Assembly: GCA_011389765.1 (NCBI GenBank)
Contig: JAABTT010000001.1
Location: forward strand, 1 to 64,000
Source: Desulfohalobiaceae bacterium S24
GTDB taxonomy: Bacteria > Desulfobacterota > Desulfovibrionia > Desulfovibrionales > Desulfothermaceae
Direction of reading: 5' to 3'
Length of the DNA stretch: 64,000 bases
Shown: one piece after another, positions 20,467-46,995 of the stretch
Position numbering within the stretch: position 1 is the stretch's first letter
Layout of the letters: the number at the start of each line of letters is the position of its first letter
The notes under the pieces: generated by a model
The model's input: only the letters and a program-made list of their open reading frames with translations
The model's database searches: none
What the model was told of the DNA's origin: nothing
Translations under genes and position numbers: made by a program

Positions 20467-20940
20467 ATGGTTGTTTGGGAGGCTTGTGTGACCAATTCCG
20501 CGGCACTGAAACACGATATCGAAACATTGCTGCACTCGCAGTCCCTGGGGGTTCTGGCAACCCAGGACCAGGGTCAGCCCTGCACGCACCTCATGGCCTT
20601 TGCGGCGATGCCGGATCTCAAGCAGATCCTTGTGGTCACCAATCGGGAAACTCGGAAATACGCGAATATTCGTTCTGATCCCAGGGTCTCGATCCTGGTG
20701 GACAATCGGGAAAAGGCGAGCCTTGATTTGCACCAGGGGGCTAGCGCCTCGGCCACGGGCCGGGCAGCGGAGAGTGATCCCGAAGAGAACGAGACCCTGC
20801 TCCGGATCTATCTGGAGAAACACCCCTATCTGGAATCCTTTGTCTTGGCCCCGACCTCGGCTCTGCTGTCCATTAGGGTCGTCAAGTATGATCTGGTGCG
20901 CCGTTTTCAGAATGTCCACGAATTGTGGATGCAGCCATGA
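20467..20940 (+). CDS. pyridoxamine 5'-phosphate oxidase family protein
   Basis: GVLATQDQGQPCTHLMAFA...RKYANIRSDPRVSILVDNRE; start uncertain (20467 or downstream). Confidence 0.8.
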   Translation: MVVWEACVTNSAALKHDIETLLHSQSLGVLATQDQGQPCTHLMAFAAMPDLKQILVVTNRETRKYANIRSDPRVSILVDNREKASLDLHQGASASATGRAAESDPEENETLLRIYLEKHPYLESFVLAPTSALLSIRVVKYDLVRRFQNVHELWMQP

Positions 20941-21030
20941 AGACAGTCTTGACGCTCAAGGCCGTCACTGAGCGGATGAGCCGGTGAAGGGCTGAAATTA
21001 TTCTGTACAATCTCTGCATGTAAACTGGCG

Positions 21031-21936
21031 ATGGATCCAATGGACATCGGGATTATCACGGTCAAGGGGTGCACCTATCATCCCAATCAGCGGCTCCGGG
21101 AGGCGGCTCAAAACCGGGGACTCGTTCTGGAGTGCCTCAACCCCTATGACCTGCATCCCGGCATCCATGCCGGTCGCTTGACGCTTCAAATCGGGGAAGA
21201 CCGGAGCCTGCCCGGAGTGATTCTCCCCAGACAGGGGGCTCAGATCGGCGCCTCCAGCCTGACCATACTCACCCAGTTTTACAACCTCGGAATCCCTCTG
21301 GTGAATGAACCGGAATCCATTCGCATCGCAAGCAACAAGTTTTCGACCCTGCAGGTCCTGGCAGCAGCGAGTATTCCGGTTCCAGATACCCGATTCGCCC
21401 ATTCCCCTTCGGCTTTTTGGTCCGGGATCGAGGGCCTCGGAGGTTATCCGCTTGTGGGCAAAGGGTTAAACAGCCGGCAGGGGCAGGAGGTGGAACTTCT
21501 CAACGGATCTCGGGATGCGGAGCGCTTCATGGAGACGCGCCTGAAAGCCGACAAGGGCGTGCTGCTGCAGCGTTTTCTTCCCCCCAAAGGACGGAGAGAC
21601 TTCAGAGTGCTGGTCATTGGTGGCAAGGTGGCCGGGACCATGGAGCTTAAGGCCTTTGACGGGGATTTTCGATCCAATTATCATGTCTCAGGCTGGAGTC
21701 ACAGGGCGCATTTGAGCATGGAACAGGAAGGGATTGCCCTGGCAAGCGTCCAGGCTGTGGGCCTGAGCATCGCAGGCGTTGATCTGGTTCTGGAAGAGAG
21801 CCAAAAATGCCTGGTTCTCGAGGTCAATTCCACGCCCGGCTTCAAGGGGCTGGAAGCGGCAAGCGGTGTGGACGTTGCCGACAAAATCATTACCTACGCA
21901 GCCGCCTTGATCAGGGACGTTCCCGGGGGCTCCTGA
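21031..21936 (+). CDS. RimK-like ATP-grasp protein
   Basis: YPLVGKGLNSRQGQEVELL, GVLLQRFLPPKGRRDFRVLVIGGKV, LVLEVNSTPGFKGLEAASGVDVA. Confidence 0.88.
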   Translation: MDPMDIGIITVKGCTYHPNQRLREAAQNRGLVLECLNPYDLHPGIHAGRLTLQIGEDRSLPGVILPRQGAQIGASSLTILTQFYNLGIPLVNEPESIRIASNKFSTLQVLAAASIPVPDTRFAHSPSAFWSGIEGLGGYPLVGKGLNSRQGQEVELLNGSRDAERFMETRLKADKGVLLQRFLPPKGRRDFRVLVIGGKVAGTMELKAFDGDFRSNYHVSGWSHRAHLSMEQEGIALASVQAVGLSIAGVDLVLEESQKCLVLEVNSTPGFKGLEAASGVDVADKIITYAAALIRDVPGGS

Positions 21937-22020
21937 TACAATATCAGACTTCGCACCGAAATTACGACGTTGAACTTTAAGGCTATAAAATAATTAGCAA
22001 TGTCAGGAATGTTGTTAAAA

Positions 22021-22141
22021 TTGGACATTCTTTTGGTTTCTGGTGTCAGGGAAAGAAAAAACTCAAAATGTCAATGCTTTAAAATCTGACACCTGAAACC
22101 TGAAACCTCGAATTGCAAATAATGCACAATAAAGTGTCCAA
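22021..22141. repeat. MITE-like intergenic repeat, copy 1
   Basis: Ends TTGGACA...TGTCCAA; internal arms TTTCTGGTGTCAG / CTGACACCTGAAA; homologous in inverted orientation to 46750-46875 and 22 nt of flank. Confidence 0.7.
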
Positions 22142-22316
22142 TAATTTATACAAATTTTAGTTCACTGGAAAGAGTTCTGCACTTGCCGGGCGACGCAAAA
22201 ATTTTAAATATACTGATCCAGCTTCTATTGAAATAGAGACCGGGAACCTTTGAATCAGCAGTTTTTGTCGGAAAAATCAAAATTGGATCAGTATAATACA
22301 CTCGAGGACGCGGGCC

Positions 22317-23444
22317 ATGCGGATTCAGGATGTGCAGCTGCAGTCGGACGGTTCCGGGAGCCGGATTCAGGCCCGGGTGATCTGGGAAGATTGCGATCAG
22401 CCGGAGCGGTTGCTTTTCATTGAAACCACCCGGGATTTTGGATCGGATCTGGAGCCGTCCTGGCAGGCCTTTTTAGTGGGCTGCCTCATCCCGGCTCTGC
22501 ATTTCCAGGAACAGCGTCTGGCTGTAGACGGGGAGGTCTGCCCCTGGCTGCTGGAGGGGCTGGAAACGGTCATGGCCCTTGTCCGGCACTGGTCCAAGGG
22601 GGCTTACTTTCCGTTGCGCATTGAGCCGCGTCGCATCCTGAGAGAGGGCGCTCAAATCAAGCAGGGCCCCAGGGCCGGCATGTTTTATTCCGGGGGTATT
22701 GATTCCCTGGCCGCCCTGCGGCTGAACCAGCAACGCTACCCCTCGTCCCATCCCGGATCAATCAAGGATTGCTTTTTTGTGCATGGCTTTGATATTGGAG
22801 GGGTTGTGGCCCGGGGAATGAAGTACCATGTCTTTGATCGGGGGCTGGCCGCCATGGAGGAGGTGATGTCCGCCGCCGGCACCACGGCCGTTCCGGTGTA
22901 CACCAATATCCGGCATCTCTGCGATGAACGCGATCTGTGGCTGAATTATTTTTTCGCCTCAGTGCTTGCGGCTGTGGCCCATGCTTTTGCTCCCAGACTG
23001 GATGTTTTTTACATCGCGTCCTCGCATGACCTTGAGCATCTGGAACCCTGCGGTTCGCACCCGCTCCTGGATCCGGAATATTCCAGCTTTGAGCTGCGGA
23101 TTCGACATCGGGACGCGGCCCTGAGCAGGCTGGAGAAGCTCAAGATCGTGGCGGACTGGGAGTGTGGTTTGCAGAACATGCGGGTCTGTCTGGCCAATGT
23201 ACCTGAGCGCTTGAACTGCGGCCGCTGCGAAAAGTGCGTTCGGACCATGACCGGCCTGGTGGCCTTGAATGCCCTGCACACAACCCGGGCCTTTGTGGAA
23301 GACGATGTCAGGCCGGAGATGTTTGAGTCTTTTGCCATCAACATCAGGCATCGGGATCATTTTTATTCCGAGATGCTGCCGCTGCTGGAAGCCAGGGGCC
23401 GTGACGATCTGGTGCGGATCATTCGCCGGAAAATAGCGGCCTGA
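22317..23444 (+). CDS. PP-loop (adenine nucleotide alpha hydrolase-like) ATPase of unknown function
   Basis: GMFYSGGIDSLAALRL PP-loop motif; C-terminal Cys cluster LNCGRCEKCVRTM. Confidence 0.78.
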   Translation: MRIQDVQLQSDGSGSRIQARVIWEDCDQPERLLFIETTRDFGSDLEPSWQAFLVGCLIPALHFQEQRLAVDGEVCPWLLEGLETVMALVRHWSKGAYFPLRIEPRRILREGAQIKQGPRAGMFYSGGIDSLAALRLNQQRYPSSHPGSIKDCFFVHGFDIGGVVARGMKYHVFDRGLAAMEEVMSAAGTTAVPVYTNIRHLCDERDLWLNYFFASVLAAVAHAFAPRLDVFYIASSHDLEHLEPCGSHPLLDPEYSSFELRIRHRDAALSRLEKLKIVADWECGLQNMRVCLANVPERLNCGRCEKCVRTMTGLVALNALHTTRAFVEDDVRPEMFESFAINIRHRDHFYSEMLPLLEARGRDDLVRIIRRKIAA

Positions 23445-23488
23445 GACAAAAAGTTTGCAATTTAAAAACGCGAAAGAGGTAGGGAATA

Positions 23489-24715
23489 ATGTCGGATGTA
23501 CTCTTTGTGCAGTTTTTCAGTCGATCCAAGAACGGGTATTATGATCTGAGCAACGGGTTTTCAGATACCTATGATTTGTGTTTGAGCAAGGGGGACTTCT
23601 ACTGGGTGGAGCACGAGGCGGACAGTAAAAAATGGGATCTCGAATCCACTTATACAAGGCGCCCTCTGCCCATTACAAAGGGCACGGTCTATGTGAGCGC
23701 CTCGTATATCAATCATTTGTATCAGGCCCATGTCTGGGCCCGGCAGAACCCGGATCTCCAGGTTGTTGTCGGAGGTCCGGTGGCGGCCTCCAGAAAATGT
23801 TCCGGAGAAGCCTGGGACCCGCTGTATTTCCAGATTCGAGAGGGAGCCGAATTTCCGGAAAATCTGCATGTCACCGGACAAAATGTGGAGGATTTGTTCC
23901 AAGTTCCCCAGTTTTCAGGCGCCTGGAAGGTTGCGATCCCCCGGGAAGTCCAGGGCGGGGACCAGGCGATATATCTTTCCTATACCCTGGATAACGGTTG
24001 CTACTGGAGCAAATGCATCTACTGCAATATCAAAGAAGCGCCTCAGGAGATGTTTCGGCGCAGAAAAAGTCTGGGCTTCGAGTTCGAGGCTGTAGACCAT
24101 CCTGGCCGAAAAATCGTCAGGCTGAATACCGGCTCCGTCACTCCGAAGAATATCCGGGAAGTCCTGCCCAATCTTCCCCTTCGAGAGGACCTGGAATACA
24201 GGACCTTCATGCGCTCGGCCAAGGCCGAAAATCAGGCCCTGCAAAGCGTACTGGAAAAGGCGGGTGCGGACTTTCCCCAGCTGACTCTGGGCATCGGCAT
24301 CGAATTTCCCTCGGATCGGATGCTGCAGTACATGGGCAAGGGCATCACCAGGGAAGACATCCTGGAGACCCTTCGGATCTGCTCCCGGTACAAGGTCAAG
24401 GTCAACGGCAATGTCATTCTGGGCTGGGGAAATTTGCTTGAAAGCGATCTGCGGGACCTGGAGGCTTTTTTTGAGGCCATGCCGGAGCAATCCATGGCCT
24501 CGGCTCAGTTGCGCTGGCTGTTTGCTCATCCCAATACGGTCATTCATGAGCAGTATCAGGGGGTGCCCAGTTATTTCGGGCCATTTTACCTCGGTTTCAG
24601 CACCGAGCCGGCACAAGAGCAGATGGAGTTGAACAAACAGGCGGTCAGGATGATCGAAAAATACAGTCGAACAAAACAGTTCAAGCTGGAAGGCTTGGGC
24701 AATATGAAGACCTGA
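23489..24715 (+). CDS. radical SAM protein, B12-binding-type architecture
   Basis: N-terminal LQVVVGGPVAAS reminiscent of a B12-binding fold; NGCYWSKCIYCN cluster motif; GIEFPSDRMLQYMGKG, VNGNVILGWGN. Confidence 0.82.
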   Translation: MSDVLFVQFFSRSKNGYYDLSNGFSDTYDLCLSKGDFYWVEHEADSKKWDLESTYTRRPLPITKGTVYVSASYINHLYQAHVWARQNPDLQVVVGGPVAASRKCSGEAWDPLYFQIREGAEFPENLHVTGQNVEDLFQVPQFSGAWKVAIPREVQGGDQAIYLSYTLDNGCYWSKCIYCNIKEAPQEMFRRRKSLGFEFEAVDHPGRKIVRLNTGSVTPKNIREVLPNLPLREDLEYRTFMRSAKAENQALQSVLEKAGADFPQLTLGIGIEFPSDRMLQYMGKGITREDILETLRICSRYKVKVNGNVILGWGNLLESDLRDLEAFFEAMPEQSMASAQLRWLFAHPNTVIHEQYQGVPSYFGPFYLGFSTEPAQEQMELNKQAVRMIEKYSRTKQFKLEGLGNMKT

Positions 24716-24716
24716 A

Positions 24717-26306
24717 ATGAATAGAGCCCCGGCATTAACCCCCTGGAAGATCTATTTGAACCTCTATGTGCGGAACATCTTGTCCAATGTTCTGGGTTTT
24801 TCGGTCATTCTGGTGCTGAACTTTTTCACGCCGCTGTCTTTTTTTCGACTCAGGCGGCTAGAATTTTTAACGAATGAGGGCTGGCAGTATTTTTTGCTTG
24901 TTTTTCTATTCATTCTGCTGCTCGTGGCCTTCATGCAGTATATTTCCCAGTGTCCGGTATGCGCCTTTCTTACCGCCTCGCATCAAGGTTTTGAGTGTAC
25001 GAAATATTCCCTGGAGCAAATCAAAAGGCGGGTCTTAAATCTGCCTCTGATTCTGGCCCTGACCAATATGACCCTGTATGTCCTGGTCCCTCCCACTTTG
25101 TTCCTGGCCCTGTTTCTTTTTGAGTTGTTTCCTTTCGATTTCAGAATTGCGCTGCTCCTTTTTTTTCGAGCTTTGATGGTCGGTCTCATCACCTCCTCGC
25201 TTTCCTTTTTTATTGTTGAAAGTTACACCCGCCGGGACCTGATTCCGAAGGTTTTTCCGGAAGGCGGGCTGACTGCTGTTCAAGGGGTCTTCCGGGTGAA
25301 TGTCAATCGCAGGATTCAGCTTTTGAATCTGGCCGGGACTTTGACCCCGATGATTATTCTGGTGTCCACGCTGGGCTTTGTGGTCTGGGAAGTCCTGCTG
25401 ACCCCCGGTCTTCCCAATCAATTGGCGCTGGAAATTTTTTGGTTCACCCTGGTCTTGTGTGTGATTTTTGTCTTTATTGCCTTCCGGCTCAATTTCCTGG
25501 TCGGACATTCCGTGGTCAATCCCATCAAAGCAATGCTGGGCGTGGTGGAAAAGGTGGAAAGGGGCGATTTCAACCAGAAAATCGAGGTGGTCTCCAATGA
25601 CGAAATCGGAGTTCTGGGGGAAGCCGGCAATGAAATGATCCATGGCCTGGCTGAGCGGGAGCGGCTCCGGGAGTCCTTTGGCCGTTATGTGACCCCGGAG
25701 ATCCGGGACAAAATCCTGTCCGGGCAGATCCCCATGGATGGAGAAAACATGGACGCCACCATGCTTTTCTCCGACCTGAGGGGCTTTACCCGCTATGTGG
25801 AGTCCAACCCCCCTGAAGAGGTCATCTTGAGCATGCGGGAGTATTTTACCGTTATGGAGCAGGCTATTCGGGCCAATGGGGGAATCATCCTGCAGTATGT
25901 CGGGGATGAATTGGAGGCGGTTTTCGGGGGGCCCATAGAAGCGGCCGACCATCCGGACAAGGCTCTGCAGGCGGCTTTGGAGATGCGGGAGGGCTTGACG
26001 GCCTTGAATGCCAAACGCAAGCAGGAAGGAAAACAGCTCTTCCGGCACGGAGTGGGGATTTGTTCCGGCAGGGTTCTGGCCGGCAATACAGGCAGCACGG
26101 ACCATCCTGCCTATGCTTTGATCGGAGATACCGTGAACAAGGCTTCACGGATACAGGAACTGACCAAGGACTTGGGCTGCGATATTCTCATCGGCCGGGG
26201 GACCCGGAACCGGCTCCGTGCCTCCTTTGCACTGCGCAGACGGGAGCAGCAGTCAGTCAAAGGGCACAGTCGTCCGCTGGAGATCTATGAAGTGCTCGCA
26301 GCCTGA
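24717..26306 (+). CDS. multi-TM membrane adenylate/guanylate cyclase with HAMP domain
   Basis: Several N-terminal TM helices; HAMP-like VNPIKAMLGVVEKVERGDFNQKIEVVSNDEIGVLG; cyclase motifs ATMLFSDLRGFTRY, ILQYVGDELEAVFGGP, GDTVNKASRIQELT. Confidence 0.93.
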   Translation: MNRAPALTPWKIYLNLYVRNILSNVLGFSVILVLNFFTPLSFFRLRRLEFLTNEGWQYFLLVFLFILLLVAFMQYISQCPVCAFLTASHQGFECTKYSLEQIKRRVLNLPLILALTNMTLYVLVPPTLFLALFLFELFPFDFRIALLLFFRALMVGLITSSLSFFIVESYTRRDLIPKVFPEGGLTAVQGVFRVNVNRRIQLLNLAGTLTPMIILVSTLGFVVWEVLLTPGLPNQLALEIFWFTLVLCVIFVFIAFRLNFLVGHSVVNPIKAMLGVVEKVERGDFNQKIEVVSNDEIGVLGEAGNEMIHGLAERERLRESFGRYVTPEIRDKILSGQIPMDGENMDATMLFSDLRGFTRYVESNPPEEVILSMREYFTVMEQAIRANGGIILQYVGDELEAVFGGPIEAADHPDKALQAALEMREGLTALNAKRKQEGKQLFRHGVGICSGRVLAGNTGSTDHPAYALIGDTVNKASRIQELTKDLGCDILIGRGTRNRLRASFALRRREQQSVKGHSRPLEIYEVLAA

Positions 26307-26329
26307 CCGGCTCGGGCGGTTTCAGAGAG

Positions 26330-27361
26330 ATGGCCCCGACCTGTCCCGGGCAGGACCATCTTGTGATGCATTATGCAATGCTCGGGAGGCGGCGAGGTCT
26401 TTCTGTTATGCTTGAACCGGAGACCGGAAACCCTCCGCAAAGCGTCATCCTGGTGCACAAGGGAGGGCTGGGGGATTTCCTCCAGGTTTGGCCCTCGCTG
26501 TATGCCTTGACCAGGCACTGGCCTGAGACTGCATTTTTTTGGGCCGGTCGGGAGGCCTACTCGCTGTGGACCGAGCCACTGGGGATTCGAAAATGCCCGG
26601 GACAGCTGGAAAGATTGGTGAACAGCCTGTACAGCGCACCAGTCAGGCCGGAGGGGTTGGGAAAGGCCCTGCTCATCTGGTTCGGCCTGAAAAAGGCGCC
26701 TTTTGAAGGTTTTTTTCCCGGGGTGTGGTTTGTGCCCGGCATCACCACGGGTGATTCTCGAAAAGAACCCCGGGAGCCGCCTCGAAAGGTCTATGCAAAA
26801 GGCCTGGCCGGGCAAGGTATTGTCTTGCGCAGAGACTGGCTTCAGGCCTGGCGGCGTCTCATCGGGGCCTGGAGCCCGGACCGCGGAGAAGAGCGCCGGG
26901 TTTTGCTGTTTCCCGGGGCTGGAAATCACAGGAAGTGCTGGCCTGTGGAAAAGTTTCAGGCTTTGGGCGAATGGCTTTGCGGTCAGGGCTGGATCGTGTC
27001 CTGCGTTTATGGGCCGGCTGAAAAAGAACGCGGGCTGAGGGTTAAAAATTTTGAACCAGTCTTTCCGGAACATTTTCAGGCCTTGCAGTTGCGGCTGGCC
27101 GAGGCGGATCTGGCGGTGGGCAATGACTGCGGTCCTCTTCATCTGGCCGGATATCTGGGGGTGCCGAGCCTGGCCCTGTTCGGGCCGGCCGATCCGAAGC
27201 AATGGGGACCCTCTCGGGTGAAAACCTTGAGCAGGAATCTCGCCTGCTCTCCCTGCACGGAACTCGGGGAAATCCTTTGCCCCGATCCGGTCTGCCTGCT
27301 GGATCTTTCCCTGGGCCGGGTGCAGGAGGCTGTAAGTGAACTGTTGCAGGGTATAAACTAG
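26330..27361 (+). CDS. glycosyltransferase family 9 (heptosyltransferase-like)
   Basis: VILVHKGGLGDFLQVWPSLYAL; LAEADLAVGNDCGPLHLAGYLGVPSLALFGPADPKQWGP; start uncertain (possibly 26408). Confidence 0.88.
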   Translation: MAPTCPGQDHLVMHYAMLGRRRGLSVMLEPETGNPPQSVILVHKGGLGDFLQVWPSLYALTRHWPETAFFWAGREAYSLWTEPLGIRKCPGQLERLVNSLYSAPVRPEGLGKALLIWFGLKKAPFEGFFPGVWFVPGITTGDSRKEPREPPRKVYAKGLAGQGIVLRRDWLQAWRRLIGAWSPDRGEERRVLLFPGAGNHRKCWPVEKFQALGEWLCGQGWIVSCVYGPAEKERGLRVKNFEPVFPEHFQALQLRLAEADLAVGNDCGPLHLAGYLGVPSLALFGPADPKQWGPSRVKTLSRNLACSPCTELGEILCPDPVCLLDLSLGRVQEAVSELLQGIN

Positions 27362-27392
27362 TGCTTGCGATTCTTCCCGGTTGGAGGCAAAT

Positions 27393-27436
27393 AAAAACCG
27401 GTCTGCAAAGGGTGAACATCCTTGCAAACCGGTTTT
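27393..27436. terminator. inverted-repeat terminator
   Basis: AAAACCGGTcTGCAAAGG ... CCTTGCAaACCGGTTTT. Confidence 0.75.
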
Positions 27437-27716
27437 AGCAAAAGGAGGAAGGTACTCTTTTCTATGCAACATGCATGCCAAAAAGTACAAGTGCGTCCCC
27501 TTACTTATTCATAACAGAAATAGAGTATCTTAGGGCAAAATGCCTGCTCGGCGACCAGGAGCGTGGTTGCAGGGGCAGTTAAAATTTTTGAATCGGTTTG
27601 AGAGCTCAGGGTGTGAAGGACCAGGATCAAGGGATAGGGTTGAAGGCCTGGGTTAAAATTTTTAAACCCGTTGGTTTGTCCCGGCGTCGTCTCCTCTCAA
27701 TGGGTCCTATTCGCTC

Positions 27717-46749: not shown

Positions 46750-46875
46750 TTGGACATCTTGTGATATTTCTTGCCTCATTTTGGGGTTTCAGGTGTCTGG
46801 TTTCAGGTTTCAGTTTGCGGATTTTGCCTTTCCAGACACCCGACACCTGAAACCAGAAACCAAAAGAATGTCCAA
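46750..46875. repeat. MITE-like intergenic repeat, copy 2 (inverted relative to copy 1)
   Basis: Ends TTGGACA...TGTCCAA; arms GGTTTCAGGTGTCTGG / CCAGACACCCGACACCTGAAACC. Confidence 0.75.
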
Positions 46876-46995
46876 TTTTAAGAACATTTCAGACATTGTT
46901 CTTTATTTTTGAGTGTCAAGGTTCAACGGCGTAATGTCGGTACGAAGTCTGGAATAAAGAAGTGAATATTGCTTCAATTTTATATGGAGAAGCCA

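Follow-up and report, generated by a model that had tools for sequence, protein, structure and literature searches.

The genes at positions 21040-26306 of the window, by which we mean the whole 64,000-nucleotide stretch of DNA from Desulfohalobiaceae bacterium S24 analysed here, make up half of a gene set that recurs across several families of a single bacterial phylum. We propose, with a probability of about one half, that this set serves to synthesise, modify and transport a small peptide-like metabolite, and that the cyclic nucleotide produced by its cyclase is read by the cNMP-binding domain of its transporter. The set is apparently undescribed, as no description of the combination of PP-loop, radical SAM, cyclase and TLC genes was found in the open-licence papers searched. 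If true, the proposal points to a new small molecule derived from a peptide, to its transport and to its control by a cyclic nucleotide, in bacteria of a phylum about whose specialised metabolism, in our judgement, little is known. A PP-loop family without a Pfam name, and the fusion proteins of TLC, HEAT and cNMP-binding domains, would also be placed in a first context, and the gene set is compact enough for heterologous expression and metabolomics.

Table 1. Features of the window half of the gene set and its surroundings
Feature	Position	Strand	Remark
RimK-family ATP-grasp gene	21040-21936	+	First of module; TIGR00768; ATG aligned with relatives
Dispersed ~90-bp repeat copy	22209-22296		Spacer 5' of PP-loop gene
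PP-loop gene	22317-23444	+	ORF present
Radical SAM gene	23489-24715	+	ORF present
HAMP class III nucleotidyl cyclase gene	24717-26306	+	ORF present
GT9 gene	26330-27361	+	ORF present; neighbouring backbone gene

The window half and its enzymes

A preliminary description of this DNA had drawn one plus-strand unit of PP-loop, radical SAM, cyclase and GT9 genes. The four open reading frames are real and lie where they had been placed (Table 1); 44 nt separate the PP-loop and radical SAM genes, the cyclase ATG follows 1 nt past the radical SAM stop, within the 2 nt given earlier, and the GT9 gene does come next, 23 nt past the cyclase stop. The unit itself was misdrawn, the real one being RimK-PP-(rSAM)-CYC. 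The ATP-grasp gene, described as lying upstream behind a repeat, is indeed present with a dispersed repeat copy in the spacer, but it is a core member of the unit, because several families have genomes in which it directly precedes the PP-loop gene; and the start that matches its relatives is not the in-frame ATG at 21031 but the one given in Table 1. Its product belongs to the RimK family (TIGR00768, 170.8 bits against a cut-off of 143.4) and scores below the cut-off of the S6-ligase equivalog model (157.6 against 331). Ligases directly 5' of the PP-loop gene share 53-54% identity with it at loci L028 and L008 and 40% at L029 and L034. At L008, in a Desulfobacteraceae MAG (genome G199, reached by a route other than our draws from the phylum), the RimK ligase (54%) lies 9 nt 5' of the PP-loop gene (67%) and the cyclase (62%) follows 3'. 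G332, from another family, carries RimK-PP-rSAM-CYC and a second cyclase (53, 72, 65 and 66% identity for the four genes), and G505 keeps the RimK-PP pair.

GT9 was considered as a system member and rejected. Although the protein is a clear family member (64 bits against a Pfam cut-off of 22), G128, a genome of the same bacterial family as the window that has no cassette, carries GT9 (48% identity), Sua5 and LigT genes in the same order as the window, so GT9 is a backbone gene, and a GT9 match is absent from all other clusters. The coupling to glycosylation that had been suggested for this gene is therefore not supported.

The PP-loop protein contains both motifs noted earlier, SGGIDS and NCGRCEKC. 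Among 17 relatives S125, G127 and D129 of the loop and the cysteines C291, C301, C304 and C307 are invariant and G126 is nearly so; R271 and K274 are further motif residues. No Pfam or NCBIfam family is matched by the protein; a QueC-like phage family is matched weakly, and the best match of the protein in a profile comparison is to GMP synthase (E 0.12), the alignment covering the SGGxD loop. Weak matches to QueC (PF06508; best E 0.0022) and to DUF6395 were each obtained for 4 of the 17 family members. The AF2 model has a pLDDT of 67 and retrieved nothing at E<0.001 with Foldseek. By its motifs, the protein is probably a QueC/DUF6395-like ATPase with a Cys4 cluster as a putative metal site. 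The likeness to QueC, the 7-cyano-7-deazaguanine synthase, consists of the SGGxD loop, the weak family matches and a Cys-X9-Cys-X2-Cys-X2-Cys cluster that resembles the zinc site for which QueC is known. In contrast to QueC, the window protein has no Pfam match, an extra N-terminal region and another gene context, and no queuosine-pathway genes were recognised around the PP-loop genes in the annotated loci.

The label "B12-type" given to the radical SAM protein stands in part. Its core can be aligned to those of the B12 radical SAM enzymes of the system (hhalign probability 98.5%, E 1.5e-15) and to B12 radical SAM types such as TIGR04014, HpnJ, CysS and TokK. Several other radical SAM proteins of the system have B12-binding domains, whereas in the window enzyme none was detected with PF02310; moreover both intact copies, in the window and in G332, carry a CX4CX2C motif (C171, C176 and C179 in the window), and a CX3CX2C motif is present in neither. 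The label is thus one of core similarity. PF04055 scores 28.9 bits, just below its cut-off of 29.5, and the single-sequence structure model has a pLDDT of 34.

The partnership of PP-loop and radical SAM genes proposed earlier is likewise upheld only in part: adjacency recurs, so that the refuting case named in the preliminary description, PP-loop and radical SAM genes lying apart in other genomes, does not arise, but the radical SAM gene is optional and rare. The two are neighbours in G332 (72% and 65% identity), and G505 retains a decayed copy on another contig than its RimK-PP pair (L030 9355-9588; 44% identity over 79 aa, with stops and frame breaks). Most PP-loop clusters, however, have no such gene, and a full-length radical SAM protein of the window type occurs in 2 of 395 sampled genomes, its own genome counted. 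The close relative at L008 has none between the PP-loop and cyclase genes, nor elsewhere in its genome at E 1e-5, and the enzyme is therefore optional.

The cyclase matches PF00211 with 71.1 bits (cut-off 21.9) and HAMP with 35.7 bits, well above the cut-off, and its catalytic motifs, the two metal-binding Asp motifs and GDTVNxASR, are kept. The position usually holding the adenine-specifying Lys, a residue role that we take from general knowledge, reads Gln in the window, so that the cyclase may yield either cAMP or cGMP. Orthologues (62-66% identity) are found at L008 and L028, relatives at 37% adjoin GshB genes in G253 and G473, and cyclases adjoin TLC or GshB genes in several families. The coupling to cyclic-nucleotide signalling raised in the preliminary description is supported at the level of gene context.

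Partners in other genomes

A membrane protein of ~1,070-1,240 aa that combines HEAT repeats with a TLC ATP/ADP-transporter domain and, at its C terminus, a cNMP-binding domain recurs beside the PP-loop genes, as do a GshB-like ATP-grasp ligase, a GNAT, FGase (N-formylglutamate amidohydrolase), SUMF and an Opp-type ABC transporter; RimK and other ATP-grasp ligases, B12 radical SAM enzymes and class III cyclases are likewise recurrent members. ATP-grasp ligases, GNAT and the TLC/HEAT/cNMP protein are closer and more widespread partners of the PP-loop gene than the window-type radical SAM gene is. In G332, FGase-Opp-GshB-TLC-SUMF, GNAT and RimK-PP-rSAM-CYC-CYC lie within ~23 kb (about C93:24.1-46.9 kb). 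The other half in the genome of the window is on contig C72 (locus L065), with GNAT and a B12-binding radical SAM gene on one strand and SUMF-TLC-GshB-SBP-OppB-C-D-F on the opposite strand, in the same order as in G332. FGase was not found in this genome, though it is present in many clusters.

A close PP-loop gene occurs in 8 sampled genomes that span six families, and all eight have both the GshB-like ligase and the TLC/HEAT/cNMP protein (hypergeometric P 6e-11 and 1e-10, respectively, with relatedness ignored). Among 387 genomes drawn together from the phylum, 24 carry the GshB subfamily, 26 the TLC/HEAT/cNMP protein and 22 both (P 1e-29, relatedness again ignored); the PP-loop draw comprised 395 genomes and was treated as overlapping with this one. 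G199 also has both partners, whereas two genomes of the same family as the window that have no PP-loop gene, and G358, with a PP-loop pair in a glycan-type locus, have neither. Gene calls in relatives were made in this analysis, Pfam was applied to selected proteins, and several genomes are draft assemblies. Sampling covered one phylum and, elsewhere, a scan with two narrow peptide patterns that returned three loci, so that spread beyond the phylum is under-sampled.

The PP-loop proteins of genomes with TLC and GshB form one clade (support 99/99), next to members from glycan loci (Nostoc, Nitrospirota and G358). The distant PP-loop proteins of G465 and G555 fall in a different region of the tree, yet their genes adjoin a TLC gene and both genomes have the GshB-like ligase and the TLC/HEAT/cNMP protein, which suggests that the PP-loop family was recruited to this set twice, separately. 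In these two genomes the PP-loop and TLC genes are on another contig than a B12-rSAM-RimK-GshB cluster. Clusters without a close PP-loop gene (G465, G555, G425, G221 and G258) read B12-rSAM-RimK-GshB-SBP-Opp, accompanied in the clusters where these were seen by FGase and another ATP-grasp protein; a cyclase is often present in such clusters, and in G380 and G520 a B12-rSAM::GNAT fusion adjoins RimK-GshB.

Variants of the set were also seen. At L122 (7609-9897) and L129 (11438-13726) a B12-binding radical SAM protein is fused to a GNAT domain (by Pfam on the L122 copy), and these genes adjoin a SPASM radical SAM gene and RimK-GshB. At L036, L067 and L138 the set takes the form FGase-TLC-GNAT-PP-loop with GshB, beside an aldehyde dehydrogenase gene and genes that by eye are Mla/MCE-like transport genes.

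Proposed function and its alternatives

ATP-grasp ligases form peptide-type bonds, GNAT enzymes acylate, Opp-type systems move peptides and B12 radical SAM enzymes commonly C-methylate, and PP-loop enzymes such as QueC or those resembling asparagine synthetase attach AMP to a carboxylate (or carbonyl) so that an amide can form or related chemistry can follow. What the analysis itself establishes is the association of the genes, through their order, recurrence and co-occurrence, the clade structure and the conserved motifs; from the family chemistry we infer the individual reactions, what they produce and how transport is gated. The ATP-grasp ligases, RimK-like here and GshB-like on C72, would link amino-acid building blocks by way of acyl-phosphates. 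The PP-loop enzyme, its Cys4 site holding a structural metal, would adenylate a carboxylate and then exchange the adenylate, most probably for an amine or ammonia, to give an amide; the GNAT would acylate, and the radical SAM enzymes would add a C-methyl group or make another radical change. The product or a precursor would be moved by the Opp-type ABC system and the TLC/HEAT/cNMP membrane protein, the latter gated by the cyclic nucleotide of the cyclase through its cNMP domain. That domain scores 79.6 bits and keeps the E...R-S cassette (FGEMALF...ARSA). The N-terminal domain matches PF03219 (28.6 bits), as in TLC ATP/ADP (NTP/NDP exchange) transporters; unlike these, the protein is fused to HEAT repeats and the cNMP domain, and it scores 29.6 bits on TIGR00769 against a cut-off of 387. 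We regard as possible, though more tentatively, a fuller picture of an undescribed system spread over several families. Two to four ATP-grasp ligases would build a non-ribosomal small peptide, which would be amidated by the PP-loop enzyme, a member of a new family, and then be radical-modified and acylated. The product would serve sulfate-reducer-type bacteria as a cofactor, signal or metallophore not known before, and its transport would fall to a cyclic-nucleotide-gated protein with the fold of ATP/ADP carriers, supplied by a membrane cyclase of its own.

Related gene sets are known. The biosynthesis of NAGGN (N-acetylglutaminylglutamine amide) brings together a GNAT, an ATP-grasp ligase and an enzyme of PP-loop type that forms the amide, as is proposed for the gene set here; its PP-loop enzyme is an asparagine-synthetase-like amidotransferase, and radical SAM, cyclase and TLC/cNMP parts have no counterpart in it. 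Aravind and co-workers predicted small-metabolite operons with ATP-grasp peptide ligases, GNAT, modifying enzymes and peptide transporters (PMC2922099 and work cited there). ATP-grasp, GNAT and peptide transporter are shared with those clusters, whereas the available part of that source makes no mention of the set of PP-loop, radical SAM, cyclase and TLC/HEAT/cNMP genes (PMC2922099).

Several observations weigh against a peptide-like metabolite: the two halves are on different contigs in the genome of the window and have no specific regulatory signal in common, the window-type radical SAM enzyme is rare, FGase is missing from the genome of the window, the PP-loop chemistry is without support from structure models, and relatives of the PP-loop protein outside the set sit in glycan loci. 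The nearest of these are in a Nostoc EPS locus and in Nitrospirota clusters of Wzm/Wzt type, so that the PP-loop substrate may be a sugar acid. We consider it unlikely, on balance, that the PP-loop and RimK enzymes modify a surface glycan, for example by turning a uronic acid into its amide or adding an amino acid, with the remaining genes serving envelope physiology; distant PP-loop genes beside those of polysaccharide pyruvyl transferases and three clusters that adjoin Mla/MCE-like genes would fit such a role, but peptide ligases and an oligopeptide-type transporter predominate, and the clusters of the clade contain no conserved glycosyltransferase, GT9 being backbone.

A pathway to a low-molecular-weight, glutathione-like thiol, in which GshB joins a dipeptide and Gly and the RimK and PP-loop enzymes extend or amidate the product, seems distinctly unlikely. 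Glutathione amide is a known natural product, the C72 GshB exceeds the cut-off of the glutathione synthase model NF003573 (276.7 against 272), and the glutathione importer GsiB is the second-best model for the C72 SBP; on the other hand, the same GshB falls below the cut-off of TIGR01380 (250.7 against 299), and radical SAM, GNAT and several further ligases exceed what a glutathione-like pathway comprises. It is very improbable that the ATP-grasp, PP-loop and radical SAM enzymes act on a ribosomal precursor peptide, although all three occur in RiPP clusters: the gaps of 9 nt (L008) and 35 nt (L028) between RimK and PP-loop genes are too short to hold a precursor gene, and among the ORF calls of at least 70 aa made in relatives, no conserved short ORF for a precursor peptide of the kind envisaged in the preliminary description turned up in the clusters. 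Chance proximity without a functional link, of which GT9 is an instance, is hardly credible and is refuted for RimK, PP-loop and CYC by the order kept at 53-72% identity in G332 (RimK-PP-rSAM-CYC) and L008 (RimK-PP-CYC) together with the strong co-occurrence across six families.

The wider PP-loop family also extends to other loci. In four unrelated bacteria (L002, L005, L006 and L007) distant members adjoin genes of the polysaccharide pyruvyl transferase family, which suggests a glycan-modifying branch. The PP-loop genes of Nitrospirota at L009 and L010 are flanked on one side by Wzm/Wzt-type glycan export genes and on the other by genes that by eye encode GMC-like oxidoreductases with ferredoxin-like and NrfD-like proteins.

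Repeats in the spacer

The spacer 5' of the PP-loop gene, 380 bp long, contains a ~90-bp repeat with inverted ends, TATACTGATCCA...TGGATCAGTATA, another copy of which lies at L065 7490-7582. The inverted pair TATACTGATCCA/TGGATCAGTATA, which precedes the PP-loop gene and likewise the SUMF operon of C72 by 22-24 nt, was considered as a common operator and rejected, as ~30 similar pairs were found in the 1.05 Mb (30%) of the genome of the window that were read. Being a dispersed repeat, it is no evidence of co-regulation, and the two halves are linked instead through G332, G505 and G495, in which they lie together or nearly so. The repeat is outside the logic of the system. Its interior in the window is near-identical to several other copies, and no Rfam match was obtained within 20900-27700. 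The repeat is MITE/REPIN-like, with interiors in subfamilies and a predicted long-range stem. A separate 106-bp stretch at 21945-22050 recurs inverted at 46846-46951 with 85% identity.
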